Shown piece by piece: positions 13,080 through 32,843 of a stretch of 64,000 bases of DNA. Position 1 is the stretch's first letter, and every line of letters begins with the position of its first letter. Location: positions 119,086,015-119,150,014 of the forward strand of contig OX328123.1 of the NCBI GenBank assembly GCA_946811695.1, in the 5' to 3' direction. The notes beneath the pieces are model-generated. The model was given only the letters and a program-made list of their open reading frames with translations. It ran no database searches and was not told the origin of the DNA. The stretch comes from Gonocerus acuteangulatus. Its lineage: Eukaryota; Arthropoda; Insecta; Hemiptera; Coreidae. The position numbers were made by a program, and so were the translations under genes.

Positions 13080-13085
13080 ATCTAC
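13080..13085. repeat. Left target site duplication of the Polinton (ATCTAC)
   Basis: ATCTAC directly precedes the left terminus and is repeated exactly after the right terminus at 29,312-29,317. Six bases is the size known for Polinton insertions. Confidence 0.95.
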
Positions 13086-13757
13086 AGTAGATGTAATATA
13101 GGGTTTCTGGCGCAGTCTTCAAAATTCCCTATTTCCCCGAAAAAACCTGATCGTCGATTTTTGTAGGATTTTTCATTTTTATCTCAAACATCTAATTTTT
13201 TTAAAAAATATACATTTTCTAACATATTTCTTTAAAACCTAACAAATAAAAAAAAAATACATATTTTTAACATATTTCTTTAAAACGATACAAAAATTGG
13301 GATCACCCCCAAAAAGTAAAAATATTATATAATTAATTTAATTATTATTTCCATTTGTTATACACGTTTAATCATCAATATCACTTTCAGATTTCTTAGA
13401 TTTAGATCTATTTTCATTTTTATTTTCTCGGAAGTCAATAATATGAATTTTCTTCCCATCATTTAATTCTTTTAAACCGTCATAAACGAATAATAGTTTT
13501 TGTGAATTTAATTGTTGAATATCTTTTTTATTTAATTTGTCATTAAATCTATCTGGTAGATAAACTTGAAATTTATCTTCCTTATCTTTTAACGTAACAA
13601 CTATACGTTTTCCAAATTTTGTAATACTTTCTTTAAATTCTTTAATTGAATAAGATTGACCACATTCCAATTCTGTTAGTTTCTTTATTGGATTATTTTG
13701 ACATTGACCAACTCGTTGGATCTTTTTTAATACTTCCATTTATTAGAAATGAAATTT
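13086..13757. repeat. Left terminal inverted repeat of the Polinton, 672 bp
   Basis: It matches the reverse complement of 28,640-29,311 from AGTAGATGTAATATAGGG inward. I saw no differences by eye. It stops abruptly at 13,757, where the two sides diverge, and includes the whole gene at 13,368-13,739. Confidence 0.95.
13368..13739 (-). CDS. TIR-borne conserved Polinton protein, left copy (123 aa)
   Basis: The protein is identical to that at 28,658-29,029 because the whole gene lies inside the terminal inverted repeat. It has a small globular part with the pattern TKFGKRIVVTL, VYLPDRF and LLFVYDGL, and a lysine-serine-acidic tail ending SDIDD. Similar small proteins recur in Polintons of invertebrates. 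The strand-rich pattern could suit an OB-like nucleic-acid-binding fold, but that is my inference. The start is ATG within AATAAATGG at 13,739. Upstream of the start this copy leaves the TIR after 18 bp, so its promoter differs from that of the right copy: here a TTTTATAAAA box lies about 40 bp upstream. Confidence 0.85.
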   Translation of the reverse strand: MEVLKKIQRVGQCQNNPIKKLTELECGQSYSIKEFKESITKFGKRIVVTLKDKEDKFQVYLPDRFNDKLNKKDIQQLNSQKLLFVYDGLKELNDGKKIHIIDFRENKNENRSKSKKSESDIDD

Positions 13758-14612
13758 ATCAAATAAAATTAATCAATTTTATAAAAACCTTTATTACAAT
13801 TATATTTTCGTACACTGAGAATGCTCTATATAAATCCACCATTTGTTATCGAAGTGGGGCGGGGTATCTGAATGATATCACATATGGGCGGAGGTTCCGG
13901 TGGGTGTACTCGCTTGATTGCTGCTGCAGTCTGGTATTGATTTTTTGAACTACCAACAACTAACAACCTTTCTATTTGTTAATTTTCGACTGATTTCGAG
14001 AATTTCTTAAATATTAATTAATGAAAATAGATTAATCTGATAATTTAAAACTATTAACTAAATAACAAACAAATACTTGGATGGAATAAACAATCTAATA
14101 ACAAGTAATAGACTATTAAAGTCGTAAGTTCTCGGTTTCATCATTCATACAGGATTCTAGTATATATACAACAGTCAATAGTATTTCAGACGTGGAAAAG
14201 TGAGAGAACCAAATGTATCTCATCACCGATGTACCGAGATGGCCATAGGTACACCGGAAACGATGTGACGCATGCGGTGATCTCATAGAGCATGCCATTT
14301 TCCTCAAAAATACCTCACGCTCACCTTACTTTGTAAAATCTAAAAAAAAGTTACCAAGCCTGAAAAGTTGACAGACGGCTATAAACGCCTGATGGTCCGT
14401 GATGGGCTCAAGCAACTCAAAAATAACGAGTTGAACACTTCCAAAGGAAGTACAAAGGTAACTAAAGAACAAAGTAAGGTTGAAGCCAAAAGGAGAGAGG
14501 AAGGAGAATACGGGGTATTTTTGCACATTTTTAGAAAAAATTAAAAATAAAAAAATTAACCATTACTTTCAAAGTCTTGAGAGACATAAATAAATCTTAA
14601 ATATTTGTCATT
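13758..14612. other. Non-coding gap in the Polinton with a GC-richer patch
   Basis: No convincing viral gene lies between the left TIR and the capsid gene. Positions 14,160-14,525 are less AT-rich than the rest of the element. They include a plus-strand frame (about 14,343-14,544) with a lysine-rich composition and a minus-strand frame at 14,116-14,307; neither has a recognised domain. The patch may be captured host or transposon DNA. Confidence 0.45.
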
Positions 14613-15821
14613 CTAAATTTCTATTAAATCATTCTTTATAAAATCATATTTCAACTTTTTCTCAGAAACAATAATCACATATATATTTGTACCACCAGGA
14701 ACTACATTCTGAAAATCAACATTCAGAATAATATTATTTTTACTATTTGAAATATTAATTGGTCCTTTTCTAACATCTATTACATATAAAGGTCTATTTT
14801 TTATGAAATCATCAGGATCATAAAGCATATTCATATTTCCGATATAAGACCTTTTATAATCTTTATACATATCATATAATAATGAATAATTGTTCTCTTT
14901 AATATCTAAATTTAACATTTCTTCCGGATAATATGTTTCATTAATTTTAACTCTAATATTTCTAACATCAACATGGTCAAATTTAGAAGGATCTTTCTTT
15001 TGATCATTTCTTCTCGATGTTTGGAATCCTACAATTATGAATTTCGGTTTATCAATGTTCCTATAAATATTAGTTATATCAAAACTTAAATTTGATCCCA
15101 TAATACCAGTTTTTTCAATACACTCCCAAGTTTTAAATACAAATTCTTGTGTTCCACCAAACTTGTCCATCTCATTAATTAATTCAATTTTTGAAGGTGT
15201 TGAATACTCTATGATAGGAACACGTAAATAAAAATCAGTTATTGTAATTTTACCTGTAGGTGCATAAGACTTTCCATCTGCTTGAAGTGATAGAAAAATC
15301 CCGTCATCATCAGTGTTTCTAAGAAATGTTATTAAAAATCCTCCTTTGTATATTGGTATGTTTATACCTCCAAAATATCCTAATCCTAAATCGTTTAAGG
15401 TTCCACAATAATTAAATTTTCCATATTTATGATCACATTTCACTGCACCATTCATTTTAGACAAAGTTTCATCTTGAGACAGTGATATCGTATGTTTTAC
15501 AGTACTTATAATACCTGGATCTTCAATTCTATCAATTAATTTGTTATGTTTTTTTACTTCTATACTTCGAAATAAGAAAGGAATAAAATTATCTATTAAT
15601 TTAGTTCCCGAATTCATACCATAGTGTTCACCATCTTTGGCATTGAAAGAACCTGAAATAACAAACTGAAAATGGGAACTTAAAAAATTATCACCAACAT
15701 CGATTAAGAATTCTATTCTCTGATTTTCTTTATTAAAATTCAATTCGGTATTATTCGATGGGAAAAAATGTTTAAATTGTTGTTTTTCTATATTAGGATT
15801 ATATTTTGAATACATCTCCAT
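14613..15821 (-). CDS. Polinton major capsid protein (double jelly-roll, hexon-like)
   Basis: At 402 residues it is strand-rich throughout. It carries the C-terminal signature of Polinton capsid proteins: IIVGFQTSRR, then FDHVDVRNIRVKIN with YPEE, a SLLYDMYKDYKRSYIG helix segment, and a LYVIDVRKGP strand near residues 345-360. In the family, two jelly-roll domains trimerise to build the icosahedral shell. The gene starts at 15,821 in the AATAAATGG context, following the tryptophan-repeat gene in the same direction with a hairpin at 15,871-15,894 between them. The frame is complete and no residue loss is evident. The assignment rests on sequence pattern; a structural model would settle it. Confidence 0.85.
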   Translation of the reverse strand: MEMYSKYNPNIEKQQFKHFFPSNNTELNFNKENQRIEFLIDVGDNFLSSHFQFVISGSFNAKDGEHYGMNSGTKLIDNFIPFLFRSIEVKKHNKLIDRIEDPGIISTVKHTISLSQDETLSKMNGAVKCDHKYGKFNYCGTLNDLGLGYFGGINIPIYKGGFLITFLRNTDDDGIFLSLQADGKSYAPTGKITITDFYLRVPIIEYSTPSKIELINEMDKFGGTQEFVFKTWECIEKTGIMGSNLSFDITNIYRNIDKPKFIIVGFQTSRRNDQKKDPSKFDHVDVRNIRVKINETYYPEEMLNLDIKENNYSLLYDMYKDYKRSYIGNMNMLYDPDDFIKNRPLYVIDVRKGPINISNSKNNIILNVDFQNVVPGGTNIYVIIVSEKKLKYDFIKNDLIEI

Positions 15822-15870
15822 TTATTAAGATAAAAAATCTTTATAATTTAAAAACTAGTTTATAATTATT

Positions 15871-15894
15871 AGACCCCGTCTCAGAGACGAGGTT
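15871..15894 (-). terminator. Hairpin between tryptophan-repeat and capsid genes
   Basis: ACCCCGTCTC and GAGACGAGGT can pair over a very short loop. The hairpin sits 8 bp downstream of the stop of the gene ending at 15,902. It resembles the hairpins after the 487-residue gene and PolB, so a role in mRNA 3'-end formation is inferred. Confidence 0.5.
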
Positions 15895-15901
15895 TGAAAA
15901 T

Positions 15902-16333
15902 TTAAAAAACATAATTTATTAATGAAGGTACAGTATCAACATTAAATCTATTTTTATAATATTTCGAAAATTCTTCATAATGTTCTTGTTTAAATTCATT
16001 TGATATATCAGTTCTTTCGAAAATTATTATCCAATTAACCAAATGTTTATATTTTATTAAATTATCTGGAGAAAACTTTTGATAAAAAGACATAATGTTC
16101 CAATCAAATAATGAGTAATAAAACTCGATCTTTTGTTCATCAATTTTCTGATATCTCGAAATGATTTTCCAATCTATTTTATTTGAAAACATTCCTAATT
16201 CTTCTAATTTAAACGGATGGTATTGTGAAACAAGTTTCCAATTTAATTTATTCTGAAATACAATTAAAAATTCTGTTGTTAAACCAGGAAATGAAGATAT
16301 TTCATCCCAATCATTATTTTGTGTTGTCTCCAT
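15902..16333 (-). CDS. Tryptophan-repeat protein (143 aa)
   Basis: Four to five degenerate units of about 23 residues each contain W-x-x-(I/L/V) followed by S-x-(Y/F)-(Q/H): NWKLVSQYH, DWKIISRYQ, DWNIMSFYQ and NWIIIFERT. Between them lie helices with aromatic and acidic residues. Repeats of this kind occur in proteins of large DNA viruses and some Polintons, but I know no assigned function. The gene sits in the late-type minus cluster between the coiled-coil gene and the capsid gene and starts at AATAAATGG, so a structural or assembly role is possible. Confidence 0.7.
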   Translation of the reverse strand: METTQNNDWDEISSFPGLTTEFLIVFQNKLNWKLVSQYHPFKLEELGMFSNKIDWKIISRYQKIDEQKIEFYYSLFDWNIMSFYQKFSPDNLIKYKHLVNWIIIFERTDISNEFKQEHYEEFSKYYKNRFNVDTVPSLINYVF

Positions 16334-16390
16334 TTATTAAGAAAAAAATCTTTTTAATTTTCAAAATTGTTACCACTTTAGGAAATAATA

Positions 16391-17227
16391 CTATTCGGAA
16401 GGTAAAGCAATATAATGAAGTTCTCTTCGCAGTTCTGATACTTTTGTGTTTAATTCTTTTCTTATTATTTCTATTTCTTTAAGAATACTTTCATTTAGTG
16501 ATTTTTTATATTCTTCTTTCGCTATGTCTTTTTCCAGTTCTTCTATTTTATTGTTTAAATCTTTCATAAATTGTTCTACTTGTGGGTAATAACTATTATA
16601 TAAAGTGTCAGAAAATATTTGAAGATGTATTTGTAACTCTTCTTCTTTCAAATATTCTTCCATTTTGTTCTTTATATCACTATCAACTTGTACTGGTATA
16701 ACATCACTAATTAAATCCTGAGTGAGTTTTTTCATCTTTTCATCTAAATCTTCTTTAGTTGTATATTCAAATAATTTCTCATCGATGATCTCTTCAAATT
16801 CTTTTGTATCAGTTGTTCTTTTATCTCTTTTATTTTCATTAATTGCCCTCTCTATCATCGTTTTCACTTGTTTCATAATAACTACATCATTATTATCTCT
16901 TCCTTCTGAAACACTGACAAGTCTTTTTTTATTAAAACCAATATAACTTTTAGTAAATGTAAACAATGAACCGATAATTTCATCAACTTTTACTTTTAAT
17001 TCATTCTTTAATTTATTATTAAAATCATTTTTTAAATCATTCTTTAATTTATTTTCATCATCTTTTAATTTTGTTTGGAATGTTGAGAATTCTGTTCTAA
17101 AAGAATTTGAAAGTTCATTTACAATATCACTTTTTAATTTCGTTTCATCAATATCGCCAGATTCCGGAAAAACAATTTGATTTCCTAAAACATCAAATTT
17201 TAAAATAACTCTTGAATAAGATTCCAT
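16391..17227 (-). CDS. Coiled-coil virion-type protein (278 aa)
   Basis: Two long heptad-like regions are visible: residues about 25-85, rich in K/D/N with regularly spaced L, I and F, and residues about 205-275, ending in a run of helix-forming residues such as KEIEIIRKELNTKVSELRRE. The N-terminus (VILKFDVLGNQIVFPESG) looks like a short strand pair. No enzymatic motif is visible. The start ATG at 17,227 lies inside the 3' end of the protease gene (28-bp overlap), so the two are probably expressed from overlapping transcripts. A trimeric fibre or tail-like role is possible but unproven. Confidence 0.7.
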   Translation of the reverse strand: MESYSRVILKFDVLGNQIVFPESGDIDETKLKSDIVNELSNSFRTEFSTFQTKLKDDENKLKNDLKNDFNNKLKNELKVKVDEIIGSLFTFTKSYIGFNKKRLVSVSEGRDNNDVVIMKQVKTMIERAINENKRDKRTTDTKEFEEIIDEKLFEYTTKEDLDEKMKKLTQDLISDVIPVQVDSDIKNKMEEYLKEEELQIHLQIFSDTLYNSYYPQVEQFMKDLNNKIEELEKDIAKEEYKKSLNESILKEIEIIRKELNTKVSELRRELHYIALPSE

Positions 17228-17547
17228 TTCTTTCTATTTATTATATTTAAAATTTCATTAAAATCCATATCTTTAGAAAAGAATTTAAGAACTAACAAAC
17301 ATAAATGTCCACAAATAGGTGGATCATTAATTTCTTGAAGTCTGTCTTCATTATATATTAAATTATCTTTTCCCAAATATATAACTAATTCCTTTGATGG
17401 ATGTAAGTTTCCATATGAATTAAAATAATATTTTTTATTTCCATTTTTATAATAAGAAACCCAGTGAGTACCATTTCCGAAAGAATTATCAATGTTTACA
17501 ATTCCACACTCAATATTTCTAGGATGTTTCGGAAGTTCATCTTTCAT
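17200..17547 (-). CDS. Adenain-like cysteine protease (maturation protease)
   Basis: The catalytic set of adenovirus/Polinton proteases is present: His28 in GTHW, Asn43 in FNSYG and Cys79 in ICGHLC, with Gln71 placed for the oxyanion hole. The family's N-terminal helix and the strand before this Met are also encoded, at 17,548-17,622 in the same frame, but no ATG precedes them. That frame is closed by a TAA at 17,632-17,634 and begins within an A12 tract shared with the upstream pX gene. The Met at 17,547 is thus likely not the true N-terminus. In the family this enzyme cleaves capsid precursors during maturation. Confidence 0.85.
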   Translation of the reverse strand: MKDELPKHPRNIECGIVNIDNSFGNGTHWVSYYKNGNKKYYFNSYGNLHPSKELVIYLGKDNLIYNEDRLQEINDPPICGHLCLLVLKFFSKDMDFNEILNIINRKKWNLIQELF

Positions 17548-17633
17548 AAAAACTCCTCTAAAATGTTTTATGTTTAACTTCTTAACGATATTCTCGATAT
17601 CAAAATTAGATAAAGGAGTTATTTTTTTTTTTT
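17548..17633 (-). other. Upstream extension of the protease frame and A12 slippery tract
   Basis: The minus strand shows twelve A at 17,622-17,633, at which the pX frame ends in four lysine codons and TAA. In the -1 frame relative to pX, translation continues without stop through sequence typical of the protease N-terminus into the annotated ORF. Either programmed slippage or frameshifting at this tract makes a pX-protease product, or a base is missing from the tract (mutation or sequencing error). Confidence 0.6.
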
Positions 17634-18035
17634 AACTGTTACAAGTTTTCCTCCCTGTTTCTTTTCCATTTCTTTATTATGTCTTGTTTGTTCTTCTATT
17701 AGTTTATCTTTATATCTTTTATCGATAACCGAGTTTGCAATAGAACTTGCTCCACTCGCTAAAGCAGCTAAAGCTCCTAATCCTGCAAAAATTAAAGGAA
17801 GTATTCCACCATCTTTTTCATTTTCTCTTAATTGTTTATATGTTAATTTAATTCTAGTTCCCTTTCCGTCTTTAGCATTTCTGTTAATCTTATCGATCTG
17901 TCTTTGAGTTAACAAAATTGAATTATTTCCTTTTTTTGTATCGATTGTAACATCAGTTTTCTTTTTTACAGCACCAATAATTTTAGATTTTTGACCTTCC
18001 GTTAGTGAAATTTTAAAAGGTTTATACTCACTCAT
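17619..18035 (-). CDS. pX/pVI-like small basic protein with hydrophobic segment (138 aa)
   Basis: The N-terminal half is basic with GQKSKIIGAVKKK and LTQRQIDKI. Residues about 76-98 form a small-residue hydrophobic helix (ILPLIFAGLGALAALASGA). The C-terminus is a charged helix ending in four lysines. This order resembles the minor core and membrane-active proteins that adenoviruses and Polintons encode next to the protease, usually as protease substrates. The small GG motifs at the segment's edges could be cleavage sites, which is inference. The gene is immediately upstream of the protease and ends in the A12 tract. Confidence 0.7.
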   Translation of the reverse strand: MSEYKPFKISLTEGQKSKIIGAVKKKTDVTIDTKKGNNSILLTQRQIDKINRNAKDGKGTRIKLTYKQLRENEKDGGILPLIFAGLGALAALASGASSIANSVIDKRYKDKLIEEQTRHNKEMEKKQGGKLVTVKKKK

Positions 18036-18090
18036 TTTCTTTAATTTATAATGAATAAAAAAGAATATAAATTCTTTCTACTGGAAATTT

Positions 18091-18125
18091 TTGCAGGATT
18101 TAAAAATGTTCGTTTCTAATAAATG
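18091..18125 (+). promoter_or_regulatory. Early-type promoter motif of the BRO gene
   Basis: TTGCAGGATTTAAAAA is followed by TTCGTTTCTAATAAATGG, ending at the start codon. The same arrangement precedes PolB (24,489-24,522) and the right TIR gene (28,627-28,660), and a weaker version precedes the gene at 24,054. Confidence 0.65.
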
Positions 18126-18953
18126 GAGGGGATTCTAAATATTCTGAACAACAAACTTAACTATAATAATAAAGAAATATTTATGATTTTAGATGAAAAT
18201 AACGATCCTTGGTTTAAAGCTAGAGATATTGCTGAATTATTAGAGTATAAAAAAATAACCAAAGCATATAATCTTGTTGATGAAGAACATAAAACAAATC
18301 TAAATCTTATTTTAGAAGGGTGCTCCTTAGAAGAGCACCCTTCAAATATGCAAGCACATACTATTTTTATTAACGAATTAGGTTTATATTCTTTGATTAT
18401 GAAATCGAAATTACCTCAAGCAAAAGAATTTCAAAAATGGGTTTACAATGTTATCAAAACAATTAGAAAAACAGGGGAGTATAAATTGAAGGAAGAATTA
18501 TACAGTAAAGACAAAATTATAAAAAAGAAAGATGAAAAAATTGAAAATTTAAATAATAAAATAACAAATATCAAATCTGATGTTGTACCTAAAACTAAAG
18601 ATGAAAAATTAAGACATTTTTTCCTATTATTTAAGTTAAACGACTATGAATGTGAATATAGTTATTATGTTATAAGATGTCAAAAAGTATATTTAAAAAG
18701 AGCTGTTGATAAAATAGTTTTAGAACATCAAGATTGTGAGGAGATAATAAAATTCTATGATCCAAATAGTGTTAATTTATATTCTAGAATAAAAGAAAAA
18801 TTAAAAAATGATTTAGAATTTCATGGTAATTATTTTAGAATAAATAATGAAGAATTTAGTGAGGAATATCTAATTATAAAAATAGAGGAATTACACAGTG
18901 AAAAAGAAAATTTAATTCACAACATTTTTTTTATTTATCCAAGTATTATGTGA
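18123..18953 (+). CDS. BRO-family (Bro-N) protein with DUF3627-like C-terminus (276 aa)
   Basis: Residues about 10-118 match the Bro-N domain, with PWFKARDIAELLEY, INELGLYSLIM and AKEFQKWVYNVIKTIRKTG. A lysine-rich coiled coil (about 120-160) follows. The C-terminal region starts at KHFFLLFKLND-like sequence (here LRHFFLLFKLND) and has YYVIRCQKVYLKRA. BRO proteins in baculoviruses, iridoviruses and phages bind DNA and are thought to regulate host or viral expression. This gene is the only plus-strand gene amid the minus cluster and carries the early-type promoter motif. Its last 42 bp overlap the integrase gene tail-to-tail. An 11-bp perfect inverted repeat lies inside the Bro-N coding part at 18,315-18,343. 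Confidence 0.85.
   Translation: MEGILNILNNKLNYNNKEIFMILDENNDPWFKARDIAELLEYKKITKAYNLVDEEHKTNLNLILEGCSLEEHPSNMQAHTIFINELGLYSLIMKSKLPQAKEFQKWVYNVIKTIRKTGEYKLKEELYSKDKIIKKKDEKIENLNNKITNIKSDVVPKTKDEKLRHFFLLFKLNDYECEYSYYVIRCQKVYLKRAVDKIVLEHQDCEEIIKFYDPNSVNLYSRIKEKLKNDLEFHGNYFRINNEEFSEEYLIIKIEELHSEKENLIHNIFFIYPSIM
18315..18343. repeat. Perfect 11-bp stem inside the BRO coding sequence
   Basis: GAAGGGTGCTC at 18,315-18,325 and GAGCACCCTTC at 18,333-18,343 flank a 7-nt loop. It is much more GC-rich than the surrounding gene. Confidence 0.85.
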
Positions 18954-19853
18954 ATTATCAAAACCTAACCATTTGACATAAACTTTATCCCCTTTTCTTT
19001 TTAAAACCTTTTCAACAAGATAATCATGTGGATATTTGGTTTTCATTAATTCTTCTTTATAAAATCTACCTTCGATTTCTTCTTCCTTCAAATCTTTTAA
19101 TTTATAAGTAATAGGAATGGAATTTATTATTTTATTTATTTTAAATACCTCTGTAGACCAATTAGGTGTATATCCTTTTTCAAATATTCCTTTATATTTA
19201 CTTATCCTTACATAATCGTTTAATTTAAATTTCGGTTTTTCATTTTTAACATTGTTATCATTATAAATATTCATTAATACTTCTTCTTCATTTTTCTTAT
19301 TAACTTCTATAGGTTTCATTTTTATAGTTCTATGATAGGAATTATTATATGTTTTAATCAAATCATCTAAAATATCTATCCATTTATAATTTCCTCTCTT
19401 AGAAAATTCTTTCCACATTTTTTCTTTTAATGTTCTATTAAATCTTTCTACTATAGCAGATTTTATTTCACTATAACTAGAATAATGATTGATATTATAT
19501 TCTTTCATTAAATTCTGAAATTCTTTATTATAAAATTCTTTTCCGTTATCCGTTTGTAAATTTTTTGGTTTATTTTTATCGTTCAATATACTTTTTAATG
19601 CTTCAGTCACTAATTTACCAGTTTTATCTTTAACAGGAATTGCCCAAGAAACTTTAGAAAATGTATCTATTACAGTTAAAATATATTTAAATCCTTTATT
19701 AATTTTTGATATTCCTTTTAAACTTCCAGTATTCATCTCAACTAAATCAGATTGCCACAGGTCATTTATTCCTCGAGTTATAATTTTTGTTCTTTCAAAA
19801 TTTCTTCTAACCGGTTTATGAATTTCTTCAATTATTCCTTCTTTTACACTCAT
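18912..19853 (-). CDS. Polinton retroviral-type integrase with chromodomain (313 aa)
   Basis: The DDE core has Asp36 (WQSDLVEM), Asp102 (QTDNGKEF) and a Glu near 136 (AIVERFNRT). The C-terminus (about 265-313) is a chromodomain with YLVEKVLKRKGDKVYVKWLG and HNTWI. The family inserts the element's free ends into host DNA with a 6-bp stagger, which fits the duplication seen here. The N-terminus is short: there is no HHCC zinc finger, and translation begins only about 35 residues before the first Asp. The ATG overlaps the stop of the zinc-ribbon gene as ATGA, so the two may be translated from one mRNA. The 3' end overlaps the BRO gene. Confidence 0.92.
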   Translation of the reverse strand: MSVKEGIIEEIHKPVRRNFERTKIITRGINDLWQSDLVEMNTGSLKGISKINKGFKYILTVIDTFSKVSWAIPVKDKTGKLVTEALKSILNDKNKPKNLQTDNGKEFYNKEFQNLMKEYNINHYSSYSEIKSAIVERFNRTLKEKMWKEFSKRGNYKWIDILDDLIKTYNNSYHRTIKMKPIEVNKKNEEEVLMNIYNDNNVKNEKPKFKLNDYVRISKYKGIFEKGYTPNWSTEVFKINKIINSIPITYKLKDLKEEEIEGRFYKEELMKTKYPHDYLVEKVLKRKGDKVYVKWLGFDNSHNTWINKKNVVN

Positions 19854-20008
19854 TTCTTTTTCATTTTTTGACCTAAAAAAGTATTCTTTTTACTTCCACA
19901 AATTTCACAAATTCCTTTACCCATGAGTTTTCCATTTTTAGAAGTTTCTTCATGATAATTCTTACTTTCTGTTTGTTTTTTACACTTTACACAATATATA
20001 AGTACCAT
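19850..20008 (-). CDS. Small zinc-ribbon protein (52 aa, DUF5679-like)
   Basis: The frame starts in AATAAATGG at 20,008. It encodes YCVKCKK near the N-terminus and ICEICGSKK near the C-terminus, two CxxC knuckles spaced by about 25 residues with a central NGK-x-MGKG turn. This matches the tiny zinc ribbons common in Polintons, adintoviruses and some large DNA viruses. Function is unknown; a role in DNA or partner binding with the integrase is possible because the stop codon overlaps the integrase start (ATGA). Confidence 0.75.
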   Translation of the reverse strand: MVLIYCVKCKKQTESKNYHEETSKNGKLMGKGICEICGSKKNTFLGQKMKKK

Positions 20009-20025
20009 TTATTATAGGATAAAAT

Positions 20026-20703
20026 CTAGTCTTTAAAATAGATAAATTTCTCTAGTTTATGGATATACTTTCCATTGTTTAATTTATTATATGTATTTAT
20101 CGATAGAAAACCATAATCATCCTCCCAACAATCATTACAAATTTTTTTAAAGCTATCAAAGGATGAAAAATCACTTCCAGCAAAATCTTTATATATCATT
20201 TCAGTGTAATGAAGAGATTGTTTAAAAGAACAAATAAAATTAACATTATTTCTAATAAACTTTCTATCAACTTTACTATAACATTGACTTAAATAAATAC
20301 AAGAAATATTTTTATGTCTACCTCTAACAAAATATTCATTAATTTTTTCATGATTTTCAAATATAATATCATCAAAGATAACTAAACTATTTGGTTCACA
20401 AGTATCTACATTTTCCATTTCTTCAATATCATTATAAAAACACCCTACATCCTCTCCTATTTTATTTCCAATATCACTAAACAACTCAATCATTTCTTGA
20501 TAAATATCTTGATCTAAAGATTTACTACATACATATAATTTAGAATAATCTAACCAATCTCCATAAATAAAATTTGTTAATAAAGTTGTTTTTCCAGAAC
20601 CACTACTACCGATAATTATACATCTTAATGGTAATGGAAAAGGTTTATTGTTAGTCTTATTTTTATCTTCGTGGTAAATTTTTATACGATACTTTTTTTC
20701 CAT
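20026..20703 (-). CDS. FtsK/HerA-type genome packaging ATPase (225 aa)
   Basis: Walker A GSSGSGKTT lies at residues about 32-40 and Walker B as LVIFDDI at about 107-113. A sensor-like IYLSQCY follows near residue 137, and the arginine-rich RGRHKN segment precedes it. This is the A32-like packaging ATPase of Polintons, which in the family drives genome packaging into the capsid. It is transcribed away from the penton gene, with only 24 bp between start codons (20,703 and 20,728). That spacer is AT-rich with TATAAAT on one side and TATATAAG on the other, so it must hold both promoters. Confidence 0.92.
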   Translation of the reverse strand: MEKKYRIKIYHEDKNKTNNKPFPLPLRCIIIGSSGSGKTTLLTNFIYGDWLDYSKLYVCSKSLDQDIYQEMIELFSDIGNKIGEDVGCFYNDIEEMENVDTCEPNSLVIFDDIIFENHEKINEYFVRGRHKNISCIYLSQCYSKVDRKFIRNNVNFICSFKQSLHYTEMIYKDFAGSDFSSFDSFKKICNDCWEDDYGFLSINTYNKLNNGKYIHKLEKFIYFKD

Positions 20704-20727
20704 TATAAATAGAGTAATTTATATAAG
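20704..20727. promoter_or_regulatory. Compact bidirectional promoter between ATPase and penton genes
   Basis: Twenty-four bases separate the divergent start codons and contain TATAAAT next to the ATPase start and TATATAAG next to the penton start. Regulatory elements must overlap the coding ends or lie within this spacer. Confidence 0.5.
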
Positions 20728-21450: not shown

Positions 21451-21514
21451 ACTTAACGAAATGTTAAACTTAGTTAAATCTAGTTAAACCGTTCTGAACT
21501 TTTTAATATAATAA
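21451..21514. other. Spacer with repeated TTAAAC/GTTAA words
   Basis: The 64-bp gap between the penton gene and the next gene contains TTAACGAAATGTTAA (5-bp arms) and repeated AGTTAAA words. It may be a weak 3'-end hairpin. Confidence 0.35.
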
Positions 21515-22978
21515 ATGGATCCAAAACAAACTATTAAGATAAGAGATAGATTAATTAAAAAATTTGAACATGCCAGAAAACAAAGAATACTTGAAGAAGA
21601 TTTAAAAGGTAAAGAATATTTACCGATAACGAGTGCAATCAATAAACTTGATAATACTTTTAATGAAAAGATTTCTCAAGTCGACAAGAGTATAAAAAAT
21701 GTGTTAGAACAAAATAAAACATTAATTACAGATCTTGTACCGTTTACAAGAAACATAGCAGATATGGAAATTCCACCTTCGGGAGAAGAAACATCTTTTG
21801 AAGGAGAATTATACGATAAAGATACACCACTTGCAAAAAGTACACCTTTTTCAAAAGACAAAAAGAGAGTTACATTTGTTCCAATGGAAAAAGTTTCAGA
21901 AGACGAGTCAGATTTAAGTGAAGACAGTTTAAATGAATCAGATACTCCATTGAATATTTCATCATCTGTTATCGGTCAAATAATTGGTCCTCTTGGAGCA
22001 ACATATTTACCAAAACTAACTGATAAACATTATGGAATTACTTACGATGAAAAAAAATTATTTTTTAAAATCGGAAAGAATAAAGTTAATATAGATGGAA
22101 ATGATTTAATTATTGATGGAAAAAAATATATTGGAACAAAAGGATTATGGGTTCTCTTAACACAAAATTATGAAAACTTATTTGATAATAAAGGTGAAAA
22201 ATTATATTCACCAGAAGAATTTAATACCTATAAAGAAATTTTAATTAATAGTGAGGTTTTATATAACAAAAATAACTCATCAACAAATAGACCAAAAGCT
22301 CCACAATCAAAAAAATATAAAAATTTATTAAAACCTATATACGAAGAATTAAAGACCATTCCGGTTACCGGAAAAGGAATAGTTAATTATAATGAACATT
22401 CTGTTATGTATATACAAAATTTGAATGAATTGATTTCAAGATTGAATTTAATATATGCTTCAGAATTGGCTGGAGATAATAATTTTCATAATGAAAAAGT
22501 CGGTATTATCAGATTTTTAACAAATCTTTTAGAAAAACATATTGATGATCGAAAAGGAACTGAATATTTAATAAGATTAGTGAATGCTCTTCCACATAAA
22601 ATAATTAAGGATGAAACTATAGGATCTGGATTGTTTAATAAAATATTAAGTGGATTACCATTTGAATTACATTATCCGGGTTATAACTATTTAGGTCCAG
22701 GTACTAAATTAAATGAAAGATTGGAAAGAGGTGATAAACCAATTAATAAATTAGATGAAGCTGCAAAAGAACATGATATATCTTATAGAGATCATAAAGA
22801 AGTATCAGATAGACATATCGCAGACAAAATTTTAGAAAATAAAGCATGGGAAAGAGTTATTTCGAGTGATGCTGATATAGGAGAAAGAACTGCGGCATAT
22901 TTGACAACGAATGCAATGAAAATTAAAAGACATTTAGGAATGGGTTTGATACATTCAGAATTTGATATATTTCAGTAG
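21515..22978 (+). CDS. PLA2-domain virion protein with Polinton-specific central domain (487 aa)
   Basis: Three regions are visible. Residues 1-150 are a charged, acidic linker region (EDESDLSEDSLNES). About 150-265 contains HYGITYDEKK, VNIDGNDLIIDGKKYIGT and GLWVLLT, a conserved Polinton domain (I believe the one called DUF8207). Residues about 375-455 form a parvovirus-type phospholipase A2 domain: the calcium loop YLGPG at 392-396 and the catalytic LDEAAKEHDISY at 413-424, with His420-Asp421. In parvoviruses this domain breaches endosomal membranes during entry, so a role in delivery of the particle is inferred. A hairpin lies 43 bp past the stop. Confidence 0.82.
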   Translation: MDPKQTIKIRDRLIKKFEHARKQRILEEDLKGKEYLPITSAINKLDNTFNEKISQVDKSIKNVLEQNKTLITDLVPFTRNIADMEIPPSGEETSFEGELYDKDTPLAKSTPFSKDKKRVTFVPMEKVSEDESDLSEDSLNESDTPLNISSSVIGQIIGPLGATYLPKLTDKHYGITYDEKKLFFKIGKNKVNIDGNDLIIDGKKYIGTKGLWVLLTQNYENLFDNKGEKLYSPEEFNTYKEILINSEVLYNKNNSSTNRPKAPQSKKYKNLLKPIYEELKTIPVTGKGIVNYNEHSVMYIQNLNELISRLNLIYASELAGDNNFHNEKVGIIRFLTNLLEKHIDDRKGTEYLIRLVNALPHKIIKDETIGSGLFNKILSGLPFELHYPGYNYLGPGTKLNERLERGDKPINKLDEAAKEHDISYRDHKEVSDRHIADKILENKAWERVISSDADIGERTAAYLTTNAMKIKRHLGMGLIHSEFDIFQ

Positions 22979-23020
22979 AAACAATTTATATTAACTTTTT
23001 ATCAACCTGCAAAAATTTCA

Positions 23021-23046
23021 AAGGGGTCGGAAATCACGACCCCCTT
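23021..23046 (+). terminator. GC-rich hairpin after the PLA2 gene
   Basis: AAGGGGTCG and CGACCCCCTT pair around an 8-nt loop, in otherwise very AT-rich DNA, 43 bp past the stop codon. It is placed like the hairpin after PolB. Confidence 0.6.
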
Positions 23047-23093
23047 GTTTTTGAAGAATTTGAATATAAATATAGAATTTTTTAAAACTATAA

Positions 23094-23237
23094 ATGAAGA
23101 AGGTAAGATTTAATGATCTTGTAACTATTTATGAAATACCTTATGAATGTAGAATTAATTTTAATTTAATCAATAATCAGAGGTTTAAAATGAGAATATT
23201 TGAGTTTGAAAAGATATTTAACAAAATATTTCGATGA
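23094..23237 (+). CDS. Small protein resembling the PPP1R15/GADD34 core (47 aa)
   Basis: The frame runs from an ATG in TATAAATGA to a TGA at 23,237. Residues 3-6 are KVRF, the protein phosphatase 1 docking motif, followed by a VTIYEI strand. Residues 30-35 are RFKMRI, which resembles the RFxxRI element by which PPP1R15 proteins engage eIF2-alpha. Several large animal DNA viruses carry compact proteins of this design that dephosphorylate eIF2-alpha and keep translation running. The order and spacing fit, but the match is short and the intervening aromatic/acidic segment is diverged. Chance or a different PP1 ligand remains possible. Confidence 0.5.
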   Translation: MKKVRFNDLVTIYEIPYECRINFNLINNQRFKMRIFEFEKIFNKIFR

Positions 23238-23272
23238 TAAATTTTATATTGATAAAAATTATTTCTAAATAA

Positions 23273-23986
23273 ATGGAAGACCTGAAAAATAAGACAGTTA
23301 AAGATTTACAAAAAATATGTAAAGAAAATAAATATCAGGGTTATTCTAAACTGAGAAAACAATCATTAATTGATTTAATATTAGAAAAATCTAAAACTAA
23401 AGAAAAATTAAGTGATAAAAAAATAGTTGAATTAAGACGTTTGGGAAGTCAGTATAAAATAAAAAATTATTATAACATGAAGAAATCTGTTTTAATTAAG
23501 TTATTAGAAGAAAAAGAATCTATGGAAGAATTTAAATTACCTCCACATTACGAAGACGAATTTGAATTAACTTCAGTTTATGGAGACGATTTAAAAAATT
23601 CAGATACAGAAGGAAACTTTATAGATGAAAATTTGGATCATGGAGAAATGGAAATGTGTAGTATATGTGGAAGGTATAGTGTATTAAATAATAATTGTTA
23701 TAATTGTGTAACAGACATTAAAATAGGTAAATATAATCGTAAATCGTATAGAATAAATAGATTTCGTAAAAAATTGAATAATTTAATAGAAAATGTTAAT
23801 GATAAGGTTGAAATTGAAAAAATATTTGAAACTTTTATTAATAATTATAGAGGTAAATATATACCTTATAAATATTTAGTAAAAAAGATTGCAGATTATT
23901 TAAAAGTAGGAAATAATATTGAAATTAAGGAAACTAAGAGAATGGTGAAAATATGGAATAACTTTGAATATAAATTAATCTATTAG
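23273..23986 (+). CDS. SAP-like and zinc-ribbon protein, paralogue 1 (237 aa)
   Basis: Residues 1-38 (TVKDLQKICKENKYQGYSKL, then SLIDLILE) and 47-80 (KIVELRRLGSQYKIKNYYNM, then VLIKLLEE) are two SAP-like helix-extended-helix modules of the kind also found at the start of PolB. An acidic linker follows. Cys129, Cys132, Cys142 and Cys145 form a zinc ribbon, and the C-terminal helical region has IEKIFETFINNYRGKYIPYK and KKIADYL. That region is shared with the next gene, so they are paralogues. The layout faintly recalls VLTF3-type late transcription factors, a tentative idea. The start is in AATAAATGG. Confidence 0.7.
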   Translation: MEDLKNKTVKDLQKICKENKYQGYSKLRKQSLIDLILEKSKTKEKLSDKKIVELRRLGSQYKIKNYYNMKKSVLIKLLEEKESMEEFKLPPHYEDEFELTSVYGDDLKNSDTEGNFIDENLDHGEMEMCSICGRYSVLNNNCYNCVTDIKIGKYNRKSYRINRFRKKLNNLIENVNDKVEIEKIFETFINNYRGKYIPYKYLVKKIADYLKVGNNIEIKETKRMVKIWNNFEYKLIY

Positions 23987-24020
23987 AGAGTATATTTTAA
24001 AACAAATGATGATGTAAAAT

Positions 24021-24056
24021 TTTGTAAGATCTAAAAAAGTTCGTTCCTAATAAATG
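24021..24056 (+). promoter_or_regulatory. Degenerate early-type motif before paralogue 2
   Basis: TTTGTAAGATCTAAAAAAG followed by TTCGTTCCTAATAAATGG corresponds position by position to the motif before BRO and PolB, with several changes in the first half. Confidence 0.5.
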
Positions 24057-24470
24057 GAGGAATTAGAACCTTTCGAATTTCGTCAGATCTGTTGTAAACA
24101 ATCGGTATTAGATAATCGTTGTTATAGTTGTTATCCACCAACAAGAAATCCTCATAATAATTTTAAATATAGACAGAGATATTTTCATGAACATTTATTA
24201 CAGTTAATAGATGAACCTGAAGATAGAATTAAAATTGAAGAAGTGTTTGAAGTTTTTAATGAAAATTATAAACGAAAAGCCCTACCATATAAATTTTTTA
24301 TTGCAAAAATTGCAGATCTATTAGAAATTAAACATAATGTTCGAATAAGAAAATTTAAGAGAAATGAAGAATTGTGGAATGAATTTTTAGAGATGAAACC
24401 ATTTGAGATAATTGAAAAGAAAAACCAATTTAGAGGATATATTTTGAATCAGTTTAAAAAAATGTATTAA
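24054..24470 (+). CDS. Zinc-ribbon paralogue 2, lacking SAP modules and one cysteine (138 aa)
   Basis: The protein aligns with the C-terminal part of the gene at 23,273: ICCKQSVLDNRCYSC replaces the zinc ribbon, and IEEVFEVFNENYKRKALPYK and AKIADLLEI match the helical part. The first ribbon cysteine is replaced by Arg10, leaving Cys13/14, Cys23 and Cys26. Metal binding may therefore be altered. The N-terminal SAP-like part is absent. It sits 67 bp after its paralogue and 49 bp before PolB, so local tandem duplication is the simplest origin. Confidence 0.7.
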   Translation: MEELEPFEFRQICCKQSVLDNRCYSCYPPTRNPHNNFKYRQRYFHEHLLQLIDEPEDRIKIEEVFEVFNENYKRKALPYKFFIAKIADLLEIKHNVRIRKFKRNEELWNEFLEMKPFEIIEKKNQFRGYILNQFKKMY

Positions 24471-24488
24471 TTTCTAGGATGGAAAAAT

Positions 24489-24522
24489 TTGCAGGATTTA
24501 AAAAGTTCATTTCTAATAAATG
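24489..24522 (+). promoter_or_regulatory. Early-type promoter motif of PolB
   Basis: TTGCAGGATTTAAAAA followed by GTTCATTTCTAATAAATGG ends at the PolB start codon. It is nearly identical to the motifs before BRO and the right TIR gene. Confidence 0.65.
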
Positions 24523-27500
24523 GAGAACCAACTGAGAAGTCAAACTCTCAAAAACCTTCGAGATTACTGTAAATCTCACAATATTAAAGGATATTTTAAA
24601 TATAATAAGAAAGATGATCTTATAAATCATATTATTGATGAAATAGAGAAAAAGAAATTTATAAATGAATTCAATTTTGATTCTAGTTTGTTTTCTAGAC
24701 CAAAACCTGATAAAAACTTTGAATTATGGACGATGAAACAATTACAAGATTATTGTAGATCACGTAATATTAAAGGATTTTCAAAATTAAAGAATAAATC
24801 TGATCTTATTAAGTTGATCACTAATGATGAAAAAAGAAAGAAAAACCGAAAGAGATTAATAAATGAATCCATTAAAAAATCGATAAATCAATCCAAAAAA
24901 ACATCAATAAATGAATTCAATTTCCATCCAAGTTTATTTTCAAAACCTAAACCTCCTAGGGAAAAACAAATCAAATGTGATGATTGTAATAAATATTATA
25001 AAAAATCGTATAAAGAGAAACATATTGAATCTTTAGCACACAAGAAAGTAAACATTAATGATGAACAAGAAATTCAGGAAATTGAAACAGCTTATGAATC
25101 AAGATTAAAAACCTATATAGTTAGGAATATGGAAGGATTTTTTCATCCGAGAGAATTCTTGGAAGATAAAAGAAATATAATAATCGATAAGATAACTGAA
25201 AATGTAAAAAATATGGATTTGAAAGTTAATCTTAAATTTTTCCTTACCTTTAAAAAAAGGGGGGGAGAAAAATGGTTTGGTGGAGCACACTATTTTCTGG
25301 AAGAATTTTCATTTAAAACTAAAAATGAAATCATATTACAATCTTCAGATCTAAATACATTTTATGATAGTGCTATTGAGAAATTGATAAAAGAAATGGA
25401 TGATTTTGAAAAAAATGGTTCAGGATGGGAGTTAGTAAGTATTGATTATTTAGAACTTCGAATCAATAAATATAATCCATTGAGAGGTTCTTCATATATC
25501 GATTTACCAGAAAAAATAAAATCTAAAAAAGCAATTATTAATGTAAAAAATAATGATAATAAATGTTTTATGTGGTCAGTTCTATCAGCATTACATCCAG
25601 TAGACAAGGATCCTCAAAGAGTTACAAAATATGAAATGTATAAAGATGAATTAAATTTTGATGGAATCAACTTCCCAGTTTCCTTTAAAGATATTAGTAA
25701 ATTTGAAAAACAAAACGATATATCTATAAATGTATATGGGTATGAAGAATCTGTTCATCCTTTAAGAATTACAAAACATAAATTAGATAAACATGTAAAT
25801 TTATTTTATATTAAAGATAATGAAAATGATCATTACTGTTGGATTAAAGATCTTTCTCGATTGATCAAAACACAACTAACAAATATGAAAGTAAAAATTT
25901 ATCCATGTGAAAGATGTTTAAGATATTATTATTCAGCTGAAAAATTAGAAAATCATGAACTTGATTGTAAAACTAAAACGGCGGTAAAAATTGAAATGCC
26001 GAAAAAAGGTGAATATTTAAATTTCAAAAATTATAACAGATCGTTAAGAGTTCCTTTCGTAATATATGCAGATTTTGAATGTTTAACTAAAAAAATTGAT
26101 AATTGTCAACCTGATTCATCAGGTTCTTATACTATGAAATATCAAAAACATGAACCAAATAGTTTTTGTTATTATATAAAATATCAAAATTATGATTACA
26201 AACAACCTGTAGTATATAGAGGATCTGATTGTACTGATAAATTTGTAGAAATGATTCATGAGGAAGTTAAAAATATTCAAAAGATTTATGAAGAAATTAA
26301 ACCGTTGGAGATGACTTTTGAAGAAGAAAAACAGTTTCAGAAAACTGATATTTGTCATATATGTGAAAAGGATATAATAACATGGAATAATTATAAGAAA
26401 TATGGGGAAAAACCTATTGGGATATTAGGAAAAAAGGTAAGAGATCATGATCATTTAACTGGAAAATATCGAGGTCCGGCTCATGAAATTTGTAATTTGA
26501 ATTATAAAAATCCTTCCTTTGTTCCAGTATTCATTCATAATTTATCTGGATATGATGCACATCTATTTGTTAAAGCGATGGGGAAATTTAAAGAAAATAT
26601 TGAGGTAATTCCAAATACTGAAGAAAAATATATTTCATTCACACAGAAAGTTGATAAATTAGAAATTAGATTTGTTGATTCATTCAGATTTATGGCTTCG
26701 AGTTTAGATTCATTATCTACGAACTTAAGAAAAATTCCTGAAGAAATGAAAGGTAAAAAGTTAGAAGAATATAAATTCTTGAAATCTATGTTTAGAGAAA
26801 CCAGTAAATATTATAAAGATGAAAAATTAGATTTGATTACGAGAAAAGGTGTGTATCCTTATGATTACATGGATTCAGAAGAAAAATTTGAAGAGTCAAA
26901 ATTACCTTCAATCGAAGAATTTTATAGTAAATTGAATGATTGTGATATTTCTGAAAACGATTATAAACATGCGAAAAAAGTATGGAAAACATTTGAAATT
27001 AGAAATTTAGGAGAGTATTCAGATTTATATGTTAAATCAGATGTTTTAATATTGTCTGATATATTTGAAAATTTTAGAGATGTCTGTTTAAAAACTTATA
27101 AACTTGATCCAGCTTGGTATTTTACAGCTCCAGGATTATCTTGGGATGCAATGTTAAAAACGACAGAAATCGAGTTGGAATTATTAAGTGATTATGATAT
27201 GATTTTGATGTTGGAAAAAGGAACTCGTGGTGGAATATCTCAATGTTGTAATAGATATTCTAAAGCAAATAATAAATATATGAAAAAATATGATAAAAAT
27301 CTACCATCTAGTTATTTAATGTATTTAGATGCAAATAATTTGTATGGTTGGGCGATGAGTCAATATTTACCTTATGGAGGATTTAAATGGATAAAACCAG
27401 AAGAAATGGAAAATTTAGATGATGATTCAGAGAAAGGTTATATACTAGAAGTTGATCTTGAATATCCAAAAGAGTTACATGATGATCATTCTGATTTACC

Positions 27501-28518
27501 TCTAGCTCCAGAAAATGGAATACCAGGTAATTCAAAACATGTAAAATTATTAACGACATTATTTGATAAAGAAAAATATGTGATTCATTACAGAAATTTA
27601 AAACAATGTTTGGATATGGGATTAAAGCTAAAAAAAGTTCATAGGGTATTAGAATTTAAACAATCGAATTGGTTACAAAAATATATTGATCTCAATACAA
27701 AAATGAGAACTAGAGCTGTAAATGATTTTGAAAAAGATTTCTATAAACTAATGAATAATTCAGTGTTTGGAAAAACTATGGAAAATATAAGAAAACGAAT
27801 TGATGTGAAATTGTGTAATAATTATGGGAAAGTTGAGAAATTAATATCAAAACCAAATTTTAAAGGAAGAACAATATTTGATGAAAATCTATCAGCAATT
27901 CATATGAACAAAACAAAAGTTAAATTTAATAAACCGATTTATGTAGGAATGAGTATTCTAGATTTATCGAAACATTTAATGTACGATTTTCATTACAATA
28001 CTATGAAACGGAAATATGGAAATGATCTTAAATTAATGTACATGGACACAGACAGTCTTATATATAATATTAAAACAGACGATTTTTATGAAGACATGAA
28101 AAAAATGATTGATCTGTTCGATACTTCAGATTTTCCTGTTGATAACAGATTCAATATACCTAGAGTAAATAAGAAAGTATTAGGTAAAATGAAAGATGAA
28201 AATAATGGAGTTATTATGACAGAATTTATTGGATTAAGATCTAAAATGTATTCTCATAAAAATGAGATATCTATTTGTAAGAAATCAAAAGGTATTAAGA
28301 AATGTGTTGTAAATAAGAAAATATCATTTGAAGATTATAAAGATTGTTTATTCAATAAAAGAGTTCATTATAGAACAATGAATCAAATCAGGAGTTATAA
28401 ACATGAGATATATTCAATTCAAGTTAATAAAAAAGCTTTATCACCAGATGATGATAAACGTTATATTTTAGAAGATGGAATCCATACTAGAGCATTAGGA
28501 CATTATAAAAATATTTAA
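24520..28518 (+). CDS. Protein-primed type DNA polymerase B (1332 aa) with SAP-like N-terminus
   Basis: Two SAP-like modules at about 5-40 (TLKNLRDYCKSHNIKGYFKY) and 70-105 (MKQLQDYCRSRNIKGFSKL) precede a C2H2 finger at about 150-175. The exonuclease motifs are YADFECL (about 515), HNLSGYDAH (about 673) and YVKSDVLILSD (about 838). Polymerase motif A is LDANNLYGWAM (about 935), motif B is NNSVFGKTM (about 1078) and motif C is YMDTDSL (about 1175). All catalytic aspartates are present. A cysteine/histidine insertion (CHICEKD, then KVRDHDHLTGKYRG) lies before exo II, as in other Polinton polymerases. The enzyme should copy the linear element from a protein primer. It looks intact. Confidence 0.97.
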   Translation: MENQLRSQTLKNLRDYCKSHNIKGYFKYNKKDDLINHIIDEIEKKKFINEFNFDSSLFSRPKPDKNFELWTMKQLQDYCRSRNIKGFSKLKNKSDLIKLITNDEKRKKNRKRLINESIKKSINQSKKTSINEFNFHPSLFSKPKPPREKQIKCDDCNKYYKKSYKEKHIESLAHKKVNINDEQEIQEIETAYESRLKTYIVRNMEGFFHPREFLEDKRNIIIDKITENVKNMDLKVNLKFFLTFKKRGGEKWFGGAHYFLEEFSFKTKNEIILQSSDLNTFYDSAIEKLIKEMDDFEKNGSGWELVSIDYLELRINKYNPLRGSSYIDLPEKIKSKKAIINVKNNDNKCFMWSVLSALHPVDKDPQRVTKYEMYKDELNFDGINFPVSFKDISKFEKQNDISINVYGYEESVHPLRITKHKLDKHVNLFYIKDNENDHYCWIKDLSRLIKTQLTNMKVKIYPCERCLRYYYSAEKLENHELDCKTKTAVKIEMPKKGEYLNFKNYNRSLRVPFVIYADFECLTKKIDNCQPDSSGSYTMKYQKHEPNSFCYYIKYQNYDYKQPVVYRGSDCTDKFVEMIHEEVKNIQKIYEEIKPLEMTFEEEKQFQKTDICHICEKDIITWNNYKKYGEKPIGILGKKVRDHDHLTGKYRGPAHEICNLNYKNPSFVPVFIHNLSGYDAHLFVKAMGKFKENIEVIPNTEEKYISFTQKVDKLEIRFVDSFRFMASSLDSLSTNLRKIPEEMKGKKLEEYKFLKSMFRETSKYYKDEKLDLITRKGVYPYDYMDSEEKFEESKLPSIEEFYSKLNDCDISENDYKHAKKVWKTFEIRNLGEYSDLYVKSDVLILSDIFENFRDVCLKTYKLDPAWYFTAPGLSWDAMLKTTEIELELLSDYDMILMLEKGTRGGISQCCNRYSKANNKYMKKYDKNLPSSYLMYLDANNLYGWAMSQYLPYGGFKWIKPEEMENLDDDSEKGYILEVDLEYPKELHDDHSDLPLAPENGIPGNSKHVKLLTTLFDKEKYVIHYRNLKQCLDMGLKLKKVHRVLEFKQSNWLQKYIDLNTKMRTRAVNDFEKDFYKLMNNSVFGKTMENIRKRIDVKLCNNYGKVEKLISKPNFKGRTIFDENLSAIHMNKTKVKFNKPIYVGMSILDLSKHLMYDFHYNTMKRKYGNDLKLMYMDTDSLIYNIKTDDFYEDMKKMIDLFDTSDFPVDNRFNIPRVNKKVLGKMKDENNGVIMTEFIGLRSKMYSHKNEISICKKSKGIKKCVVNKKISFEDYKDCLFNKRVHYRTMNQIRSYKHEIYSIQVNKKALSPDDDKRYILEDGIHTRALGHYKNI

Positions 28519-28558
28519 ATAGATTTTAAATAAGAATCTTATAAATTAATATCTTTAA

Positions 28559-28596
28559 ATGTTAAAGAAGTAAGAATATATCTTACTTCTTAACAT
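28559..28596 (+). terminator. Long hairpin after PolB
   Basis: ATGTTAAAGAAGTAAGA and TCTTACTTCTTAACAT pair over 16 bp with one bulged A and a 5-nt loop, 41 bp past the PolB stop. It probably marks an mRNA 3' end. Confidence 0.65.
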
Positions 28597-28626
28597 GTAA
28601 AGAGTATAGAATTGAATTGAAATATT

Positions 28627-28660
28627 TTGCAGGATTTAAAAATTTCATTTCTAATAAATG
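28627..28660 (+). promoter_or_regulatory. Early-type promoter motif of the right TIR gene
   Basis: TTGCAGGATTTAAAAA followed by TTTCATTTCTAATAAATGG. Most of it lies outside the TIR, which begins at 28,640, so the left copy of the gene does not have it. Confidence 0.65.
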
Positions 28661-29311
28661 GAAGTATTAAAAAAGATCCAACGAGTTGGTCAATGTCAAA
28701 ATAATCCAATAAAGAAACTAACAGAATTGGAATGTGGTCAATCTTATTCAATTAAAGAATTTAAAGAAAGTATTACAAAATTTGGAAAACGTATAGTTGT
28801 TACGTTAAAAGATAAGGAAGATAAATTTCAAGTTTATCTACCAGATAGATTTAATGACAAATTAAATAAAAAAGATATTCAACAATTAAATTCACAAAAA
28901 CTATTATTCGTTTATGACGGTTTAAAAGAATTAAATGATGGGAAGAAAATTCATATTATTGACTTCCGAGAAAATAAAAATGAAAATAGATCTAAATCTA
29001 AGAAATCTGAAAGTGATATTGATGATTAAACGTGTATAACAAATGGAAATAATAATTAAATTAATTATATAATATTTTTACTTTTTGGGGGTGATCCCAA
29101 TTTTTGTATCGTTTTAAAGAAATATGTTAAAAATATGTATTTTTTTTTTATTTGTTAGGTTTTAAAGAAATATGTTAGAAAATGTATATTTTTTAAAAAA
29201 ATTAGATGTTTGAGATAAAAATGAAAAATCCTACAAAAATCGACGATCAGGTTTTTTCGGGGAAATAGGGAATTTTGAAGACTGCGCCAGAAACCCTATA
29301 TTACATCTACT
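28640..29311. repeat. Right terminal inverted repeat of the Polinton, 672 bp
   Basis: This is the exact inverted counterpart of 13,086-13,757, the same length and ending CTACT at 29,311. Confidence 0.95.
28658..29029 (+). CDS. TIR-borne conserved Polinton protein, right copy (123 aa)
   Basis: The product is the same as that of 13,368-13,739: an ITKFGKRIVV, VYLPDRF and LLFVYDG core with a lysine/serine/acidic tail. This copy follows PolB and its hairpin and carries the early-type motif directly upstream. It is therefore probably co-expressed with BRO and PolB, unlike the left copy. If the fold is nucleic-acid-binding, as I suspect but cannot show, early expression would suit a role in replication. 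Confidence 0.85.
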   Translation: MEVLKKIQRVGQCQNNPIKKLTELECGQSYSIKEFKESITKFGKRIVVTLKDKEDKFQVYLPDRFNDKLNKKDIQQLNSQKLLFVYDGLKELNDGKKIHIIDFRENKNENRSKSKKSESDIDD

Positions 29312-29317
29312 ATCTAC
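29312..29317. repeat. Right target site duplication of the Polinton (ATCTAC)
   Basis: Exact copy of 13,080-13,085 directly after the right terminus. Confidence 0.95.
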
Positions 29318-29636: not shown

Positions 29637-29794
29637 TTTTAGCACTTTCCTCCGAAGGAAAGTAGCTATTGAGGTTGGACTCATGACGGAATTTTTGAAA
29701 AATGTCTTCAAATCTTTATCGATCCTACCTAGTAGACACCGAAAATGACCCCCGTTAAAATTTATATATATATATGCATATATATATATATATA

Positions 29795-29842
<48 letters not shown>

Positions 29843-32221: not shown

Positions 32222-32279
<58 letters not shown>

Positions 32280-32425: not shown

Positions 32426-32646
32426 TGGAAAAACAATATTACAACAGTATCCTACAACTAATTACGTATAAAAAAATGTTAGTTCAAACGCGATTGAACA
32501 CCTTCGGTATTGGAGGTTTTTTCCCTCTCTTCGCCACTACGCGCCGTATACTAGGATAATGCTAATTAAAGTTTTTAAATTAGTACCTTCGCAATTCTGT
32601 GGATGTATATAATATCCTACAGCATAAAGACTCATTGTGACCACCG

Positions 32647-32773: not shown

Positions 32774-32843
<70 letters not shown>

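Follow-up and report, generated by a model that had tools for sequence, protein, structure and literature searches.

The window analysed here is a stretch of 64,000 nucleotides from Gonocerus acuteangulatus (contig OX328123.1, positions 119,086,015 to 119,150,014), and it contains a 16,226 bp element at positions 13086-29311. The gene content and ends of this element indicate that it is very probably a Polinton/Maverick, one of the virus-like, self-synthesising mobile elements of animals, and most like those of arthropods. Both ends begin with AGTAGA. An arm-versus-arm comparison of the terminal inverted repeats (TIRs) gave a length of exactly 672 bp with 0 differences; repeat detection gave 677 bp, the extra length reflecting two mismatches at the inner end. 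The hexamer ATCTAC was found directly outside both TIRs as a target site duplication (TSD), and by our estimate a 6 bp match in exact register would occur by chance in approximately 1 of 4,096 cases. The preliminary description of this DNA had reported a complete element with apparently identical TIRs and an exact ATCTAC duplication. Both were confirmed, and completeness was borne out for the ends and the TSD.

Gene content and composition of the element

Seventeen open reading frames (ORFs) of at least 80 aa were listed in the element, and 15 were taken as genes (Table 1). A 100-aa TTG ORF at 13646 and an 85-aa GTG ORF at 16225, which overlap others, were left out. The 15 genes span 84% of the element, with approximately 13.7 kb in long ORFs. 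The GC content of the body (14613-28639) was 0.246, compared with 0.350 and 0.365 in the flanks. The 855 bp stretch next to the left TIR is possibly foreign or captured DNA; predicted folds of 14150-14450 within it were somewhat stable (z -2.4 and -2.5), and three pieces of it gave no Pfam match. No known RNA families or tRNAs were found within the window, and comparison of the proteins with PHROGs and NCBIfam added little.

The segment of PolB comprising residues 480-1332 was used as a query, and 7898 of the 7982 scored candidates matched at E<=1e-3, the best at 69%. Among the 120 relatives listed, five carry PF03175, four are named DNA-directed DNA polymerase, and the others have neither. 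As judged from a 24-row alignment, the DANNxYG and DTDS columns were invariant (x nearly so). When these 24 rows and four loci were combined in a 28-row tree, PolB grouped with sequences from the spiders Uloborus, Araneus, and Trichonephila and the scorpion Centruroides (97/97); Polinton-type elements may move between hosts. The protein has SAP-like repeats at its N-terminus and an internal endonuclease VII-like insert, and we take it to be of the protein-primed type. The scan of viral contigs with the PolB alignment detected two loci and was the only such scan to give relatives; those with the PolB sequence, the capsid sequence, the capsid alignment, and the 123-aa TIR ORF detected none.

The major capsid protein matched the Pfam family DJR-like_dom, and 31 homologues were found among 2537 candidates (best identity, 78%), one of them with an organism name, Cuerna arida, which we take to be a leafhopper. 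An AlphaFold model of the capsid protein built on 18 rows reached a pLDDT of 82.5. In Foldseek, this model matched the capsids of an iridovirus, PBCV-1, and mavirus (E 1.7e-13 to approximately 1e-12; TM by query length 0.5-0.6) as well as predicted proteins of adomavirus, virophage, ascovirus, and adintovirus, the top two matches being without a name. The ATPase matched Pox_A32 with 41.6 bits, above the cut-off of 22.8. The 138-aa protein at 17619 had no Pfam match of its own but was 51% identical over 39 aa to a protein of L006, a Polinton-like contig in a bacterial metagenome-assembled genome, and that protein matched Adeno_PX (PF05829) at E 6e-7. For the integrase, PDB searches matched the core to PFV integrase (E 6.6e-8) and the chromodomain to chromobox protein homolog 5 (E 7e-4), whereas the Pfam Chromo match (E 1.2e-4, 22.4 bits) lay below the cut-off of 25.1. 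Pfam matches of the 123-aa ORF doubled in the TIRs stayed below threshold (IPK, E 2.6e-4; OB-fold, E 0.05). None of its 3 candidate homologues reached E<=1e-3, and its predicted structure was poor (pLDDT 42). The 40 nt upstream of the 143-aa ORF were 80% like those of the capsid gene.

Three results weigh against the identification as a Polinton. The PolB protein of the window had no Pfam PolB match of its own. The 240-aa ORF, which we presume to be a penton or minor capsid gene, gave neither a Pfam capsid match nor a match in the PDB sequence search, and no tool match confirms the label. The protease matched weakly (Pfam C5, E 0.085; best PDB match adenain, E 0.078) and was 35% identical to an L006 protein whose own match to C5 reached only E 0.064. 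The earlier gene list was supported by tools for PolB, the rve integrase, the A32 ATPase, the double-jelly-roll (DJR) capsid, and the phospholipase A2 (PLA2) domain, and weakly for the protease, but not for the penton label, and the integrase was not a single open frame.

Table 1. Positions of the element's ends, genes, and upstream repeat within the window.
Feature	Position	Strand	Basis
TSD ATCTAC, left	13080-13085		sequence
Left TIR, 672 bp, identical to right copy	13086-13757		arm comparison
123-aa ORF in left TIR, TAATAAATGG start	13368-13739	-	ORF list
855-bp stretch without long ORF, GC 0.336, unlike remainder of element	13758-14612		ORF list and GC
DJR major capsid protein, 402 aa, TAATAAATGG start	14613-15821	-	Pfam PF21738, E 1.6e-37; fold
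143-aa ORF, TAATAAATGG start	15902-16333	-	ORF list
278-aa ORF, rich in charged residues by eye	16391-17227	-	ORF list
Adenain-like cysteine protease (weak support), 115 aa from first ATG	17200-17547	-	Pfam, PDB, L006 comparison
138-aa Adeno_PX-like core protein	17619-18035	-	L006 protein similarity
45-nt upstream repeat ending in TAATAAATGGA	18083-18127 (also 24014, 24480, 28618)	+	69-91% to reference copy
BRO protein (Bro-N and DUF3627), TAATAAATGG start	18123-18953	+	Pfam
Integrase, rve catalytic core and C-terminal chromodomain	18912-19853	-	Pfam, PDB sequence matches
Zinc-ribbon N-terminal integrase part, 52 aa, other frame, TAATAAATGG start	19850-20008	-	aphid protein similarity
A32/FtsK-type packaging ATPase	20026-20703	-	Pfam PF04665
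240-aa ORF, putative penton/minor capsid	20728-21450	+	position in the element
487-aa protein, C-terminal PLA2-like domain, TAATAAATGG start	21515-22978	+	Pfam
237-aa Rho_N/SAP-like, Cys-bearing protein, TAAATAAATGG start	23273-23986	+	Pfam
138-aa Cys-bearing ORF, TAATAAATGG start	24054-24470	+	ORF list
PolB DNA polymerase, 1332 aa, TAATAAATGG start	24520-28518	+	homologues, alignment, tree
Identical 123-aa ORF in right TIR, TAATAAATGG start	28658-29029	+	ORF list
Right TIR, 672 bp	28640-29311		arm comparison
TSD ATCTAC, right	29312-29317		sequence

Comparison with known elements

The ends, TSD, PolB, rve integrase, ATPase, and DJR capsid support the Polinton/Maverick identity given in the preliminary description. 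The ends, TSD, gene set, and capsid fold were observed directly in this copy. Judging from what is known of the family, the element would have been replicated by its protein-primed PolB from the inverted ends, and its own integrase would then have inserted a linear copy, generating the 6 bp TSD; packaging by the DJR capsid, ATPase, and protease is possible. Most of its compactly arranged genes would probably be switched on via one signal spanning the start codon, TAATAAATGGA. This copy is probably recent and, with its integrase in two frames, may be unable to integrate alone, unless assembly introduced the break or a frameshift or reinitiation joins the integrase parts. Whether mobile Polintons that form viruses persist in animals is a question for which complete copies with perfect ends are the natural starting point.

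Intact vertebrate Mavericks, as described in PMC8097293, measure 12.7-24.6 kb, with TIRs of 46-1447 bp and a 6 bp TSD. The element is similar to them in size, 6 bp TSD, AG-starting ends, and long TIRs, and it has PolB, the rve integrase, the ATPase, the DJR capsid, and probably the protease in common with them. In contrast, the PolB rows closest to its own come from spiders, scorpions, and bugs, it carries extra BRO, PLA2, and SAP-like genes, one ORF is doubled inside the TIRs, the integrase occupies two frames, and a common TAATAAATGG start is present.

The element had also been called adintovirus-like. The features that define adintoviruses include, according to PMC11071296, a hexon BLASTP match and an OTU-like PolB domain. 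PolB, an integrase with a C-terminal chromodomain, an FtsK-type ATPase, a capsid, and a size of approximately 13-16 kb are shared with adintoviruses as portrayed in that paper and in one on Drosophila-associated members (PMC8363768), so the label is compatible with our data. However, the OTU-like N-terminal domain gave no Pfam match in PolB, the link via the hexon consists of one structural match to an "Adintovirus sp." protein, and the element is known here only as integrated DNA.

Integrase and protease reading frames

The integrase gene starts at 20008 as the zinc-ribbon frame, which stops where the catalytic frame begins in another frame. The ribbon part was 39% identical over 46 aa (E 9e-6) to the N-terminus of an Aphis glycines protein, P0082, in which ribbon and core lie in a single frame. 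Beyond its first ATG, the frame of the protease continues open in the upstream direction to approximately 17620, where it enters the A-rich run ending the neighbouring gene. It contains no ATG before the MKDEL stretch that the protease shares with its L006 relative, in which 35 residues precede this stretch. The integrase split and the lack of an upstream protease ATG argue against a working copy. The preliminary description had considered that a functional virus or mobile element may still exist; because the integrase gene is split between two frames, the element is not clearly functional.

It is quite possible, though slightly short of probable, that the element is a dead copy, which inserted recently and has lost further self-mobility through inactivating frame changes in the integrase and protease. 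The comparisons with the aphid and L006 relatives speak for this explanation, whereas the open frames of the remaining genes, among them the 1332-aa PolB, speak against it. The split of the integrase coincides with a stop/start overlap, and A-rich runs surround both junctions, which may be lesions, sequencing errors, or sites of expression by slippage or reinitiation. Loss of the protease N-terminus was not proved, because the 29-aa upstream piece did not align to L006. The zinc ribbon itself may be dispensable, because the L006 integrase ORF shows no ribbon by eye. In L006, a PLA2 domain and the rve integrase are fused in one ORF (912-2120).

Gene starts and age of the insertion

TAAATG was present at 10 of the 15 gene starts, usually as TAATAAATGG. 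Among the remaining 591 ATGs of the element, both strands counted, only 25 were of this form (binomial p 4.5e-11). Position 20008 was counted as the integrase start and the first ATG as the protease start. Because ORF calling favours the first ATG after a stop, a second control was taken from 17 PolB-bearing loci by a similar calling (first ATG after a stop, ORFs of at least 90 aa). TAAATG was found at 2 of the 93 ORFs of these loci and, when only the 12 loci with a GC content up to 0.36 were counted, at 2 of 59, in lists that include chance ORFs and to which one locus, L009, contributed none. The 10-mer TAATAAATGG occurred nine times in the element, always at gene starts (eight listed ORFs and the integrase ribbon frame), and once elsewhere in the window; the mean in 60 Markov simulations was 0.18 and the maximum 2. 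ATGGA was present at 11 of the 15 starts. By analogy with the viral and mavirus-like start motifs described below, most genes likely have a dedicated start signal, although we are less sure of this than of the Polinton identity. A T at -3 is a poor Kozak context; a good Kozak context was rejected as the cause of the motif, since TAAATG itself sets this T.

Several points count against such a signal. Five of the 15 starts lack TAAATG, and an exact-match search of viral contigs with the leader pattern found no relative. The sites are also not fully independent, because the TIR gene is counted twice among the ten and the 45-nt upstream repeat is common to four sites; some upstream repeats may have arisen simply by duplication. 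In addition, the sites could be polyadenylation signals (AATAAA) of the upstream gene overlapping the next start codon, which we consider unlikely. Nine of the ten TAAATG starts do have an upstream gene on the same strand, and the motif is missing from the starts of the ATPase and the putative penton gene, which diverge from each other. However, the motif abuts the ATG exactly every time and ATGGA is frequent at the starts. The BRO gene at 18123, the exception among the ten, carries the motif although no same-strand gene of the element precedes it, and the left TIR gene carries it 0.87 kb from its neighbour. The two divergent starts of the ATPase and the putative penton gene lie only 24 bp apart (20704-20727).

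A limited literature search (titles, the starts of abstracts, and promoter text in PMC8097293 and PMC11071296) returned no report of a start motif in animal Polintons. Endogenous mavirus-like elements (EMALEs), according to PMC8547959, are likewise integrated and TIR-bounded and have common motifs upstream of their genes; these are type-specific, and that of type 4, TCTA, matches the promoter used by the giant virus CroV for late genes. Unlike the element, EMALEs have protist hosts. The element's TAAATG starts match the poxvirus late start consensus quoted for an entomopoxvirus in PMC3061580; no helper virus is known here, and helper-virus dependence is speculation. It seems very improbable that an arthropod-type Polinton is read via TAATAAATGG, with its poxvirus-late-like TAAATG, by a transcription system of the cytoplasmic-virus type, as an animal counterpart of virophages expressed when a large DNA virus, for example an entomopoxvirus, infects the same cell. 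The common gene-start sequence offers a testable handle on Polinton expression.

The insertion had been inferred to be recent, and the identical TIRs fit this. Zero differences over 672 bp set a 95% upper limit of approximately 0.45% on TIR divergence. At an insect mutation rate near 3e-9 per site per generation, the insertion would be less than roughly 0.7 million generations old. A recent insertion is therefore plausible, although less certain than the Polinton identity, since identity only bounds the divergence, and an age based on the TIRs would be less secure if they had been kept identical by gene conversion or assembly collapse. That one of these processes made the TIRs of an old insertion identical is distinctly unlikely; identity by itself cannot tell them from youth, but approximately 13.7 kb of the element is still in long ORFs and the TSD is exact. 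A chance inverted repeat was ruled out by the 672 bp identity.

A 47-aa ORF within the element (23094-23237, + strand, start TATAAATG) has a KVRF..VT stretch that we take to resemble a PP1-docking motif; neither Pfam nor the PDB gave a match to it. Immediately to the right of the element, a repeat family is present in several copies and both orientations (29637-33180 and 38214-39208). Further along the window, a long terminal repeat retrotransposon at 44436-49683, presumably Ty3/Gypsy-like from its ORFs, lies within a TA microsatellite with identical 170 bp direct repeats at its ends, and it is flanked by a 2.9 kb inverted duplication (41450-44355 and 52954-55853) that is 98.15% identical.

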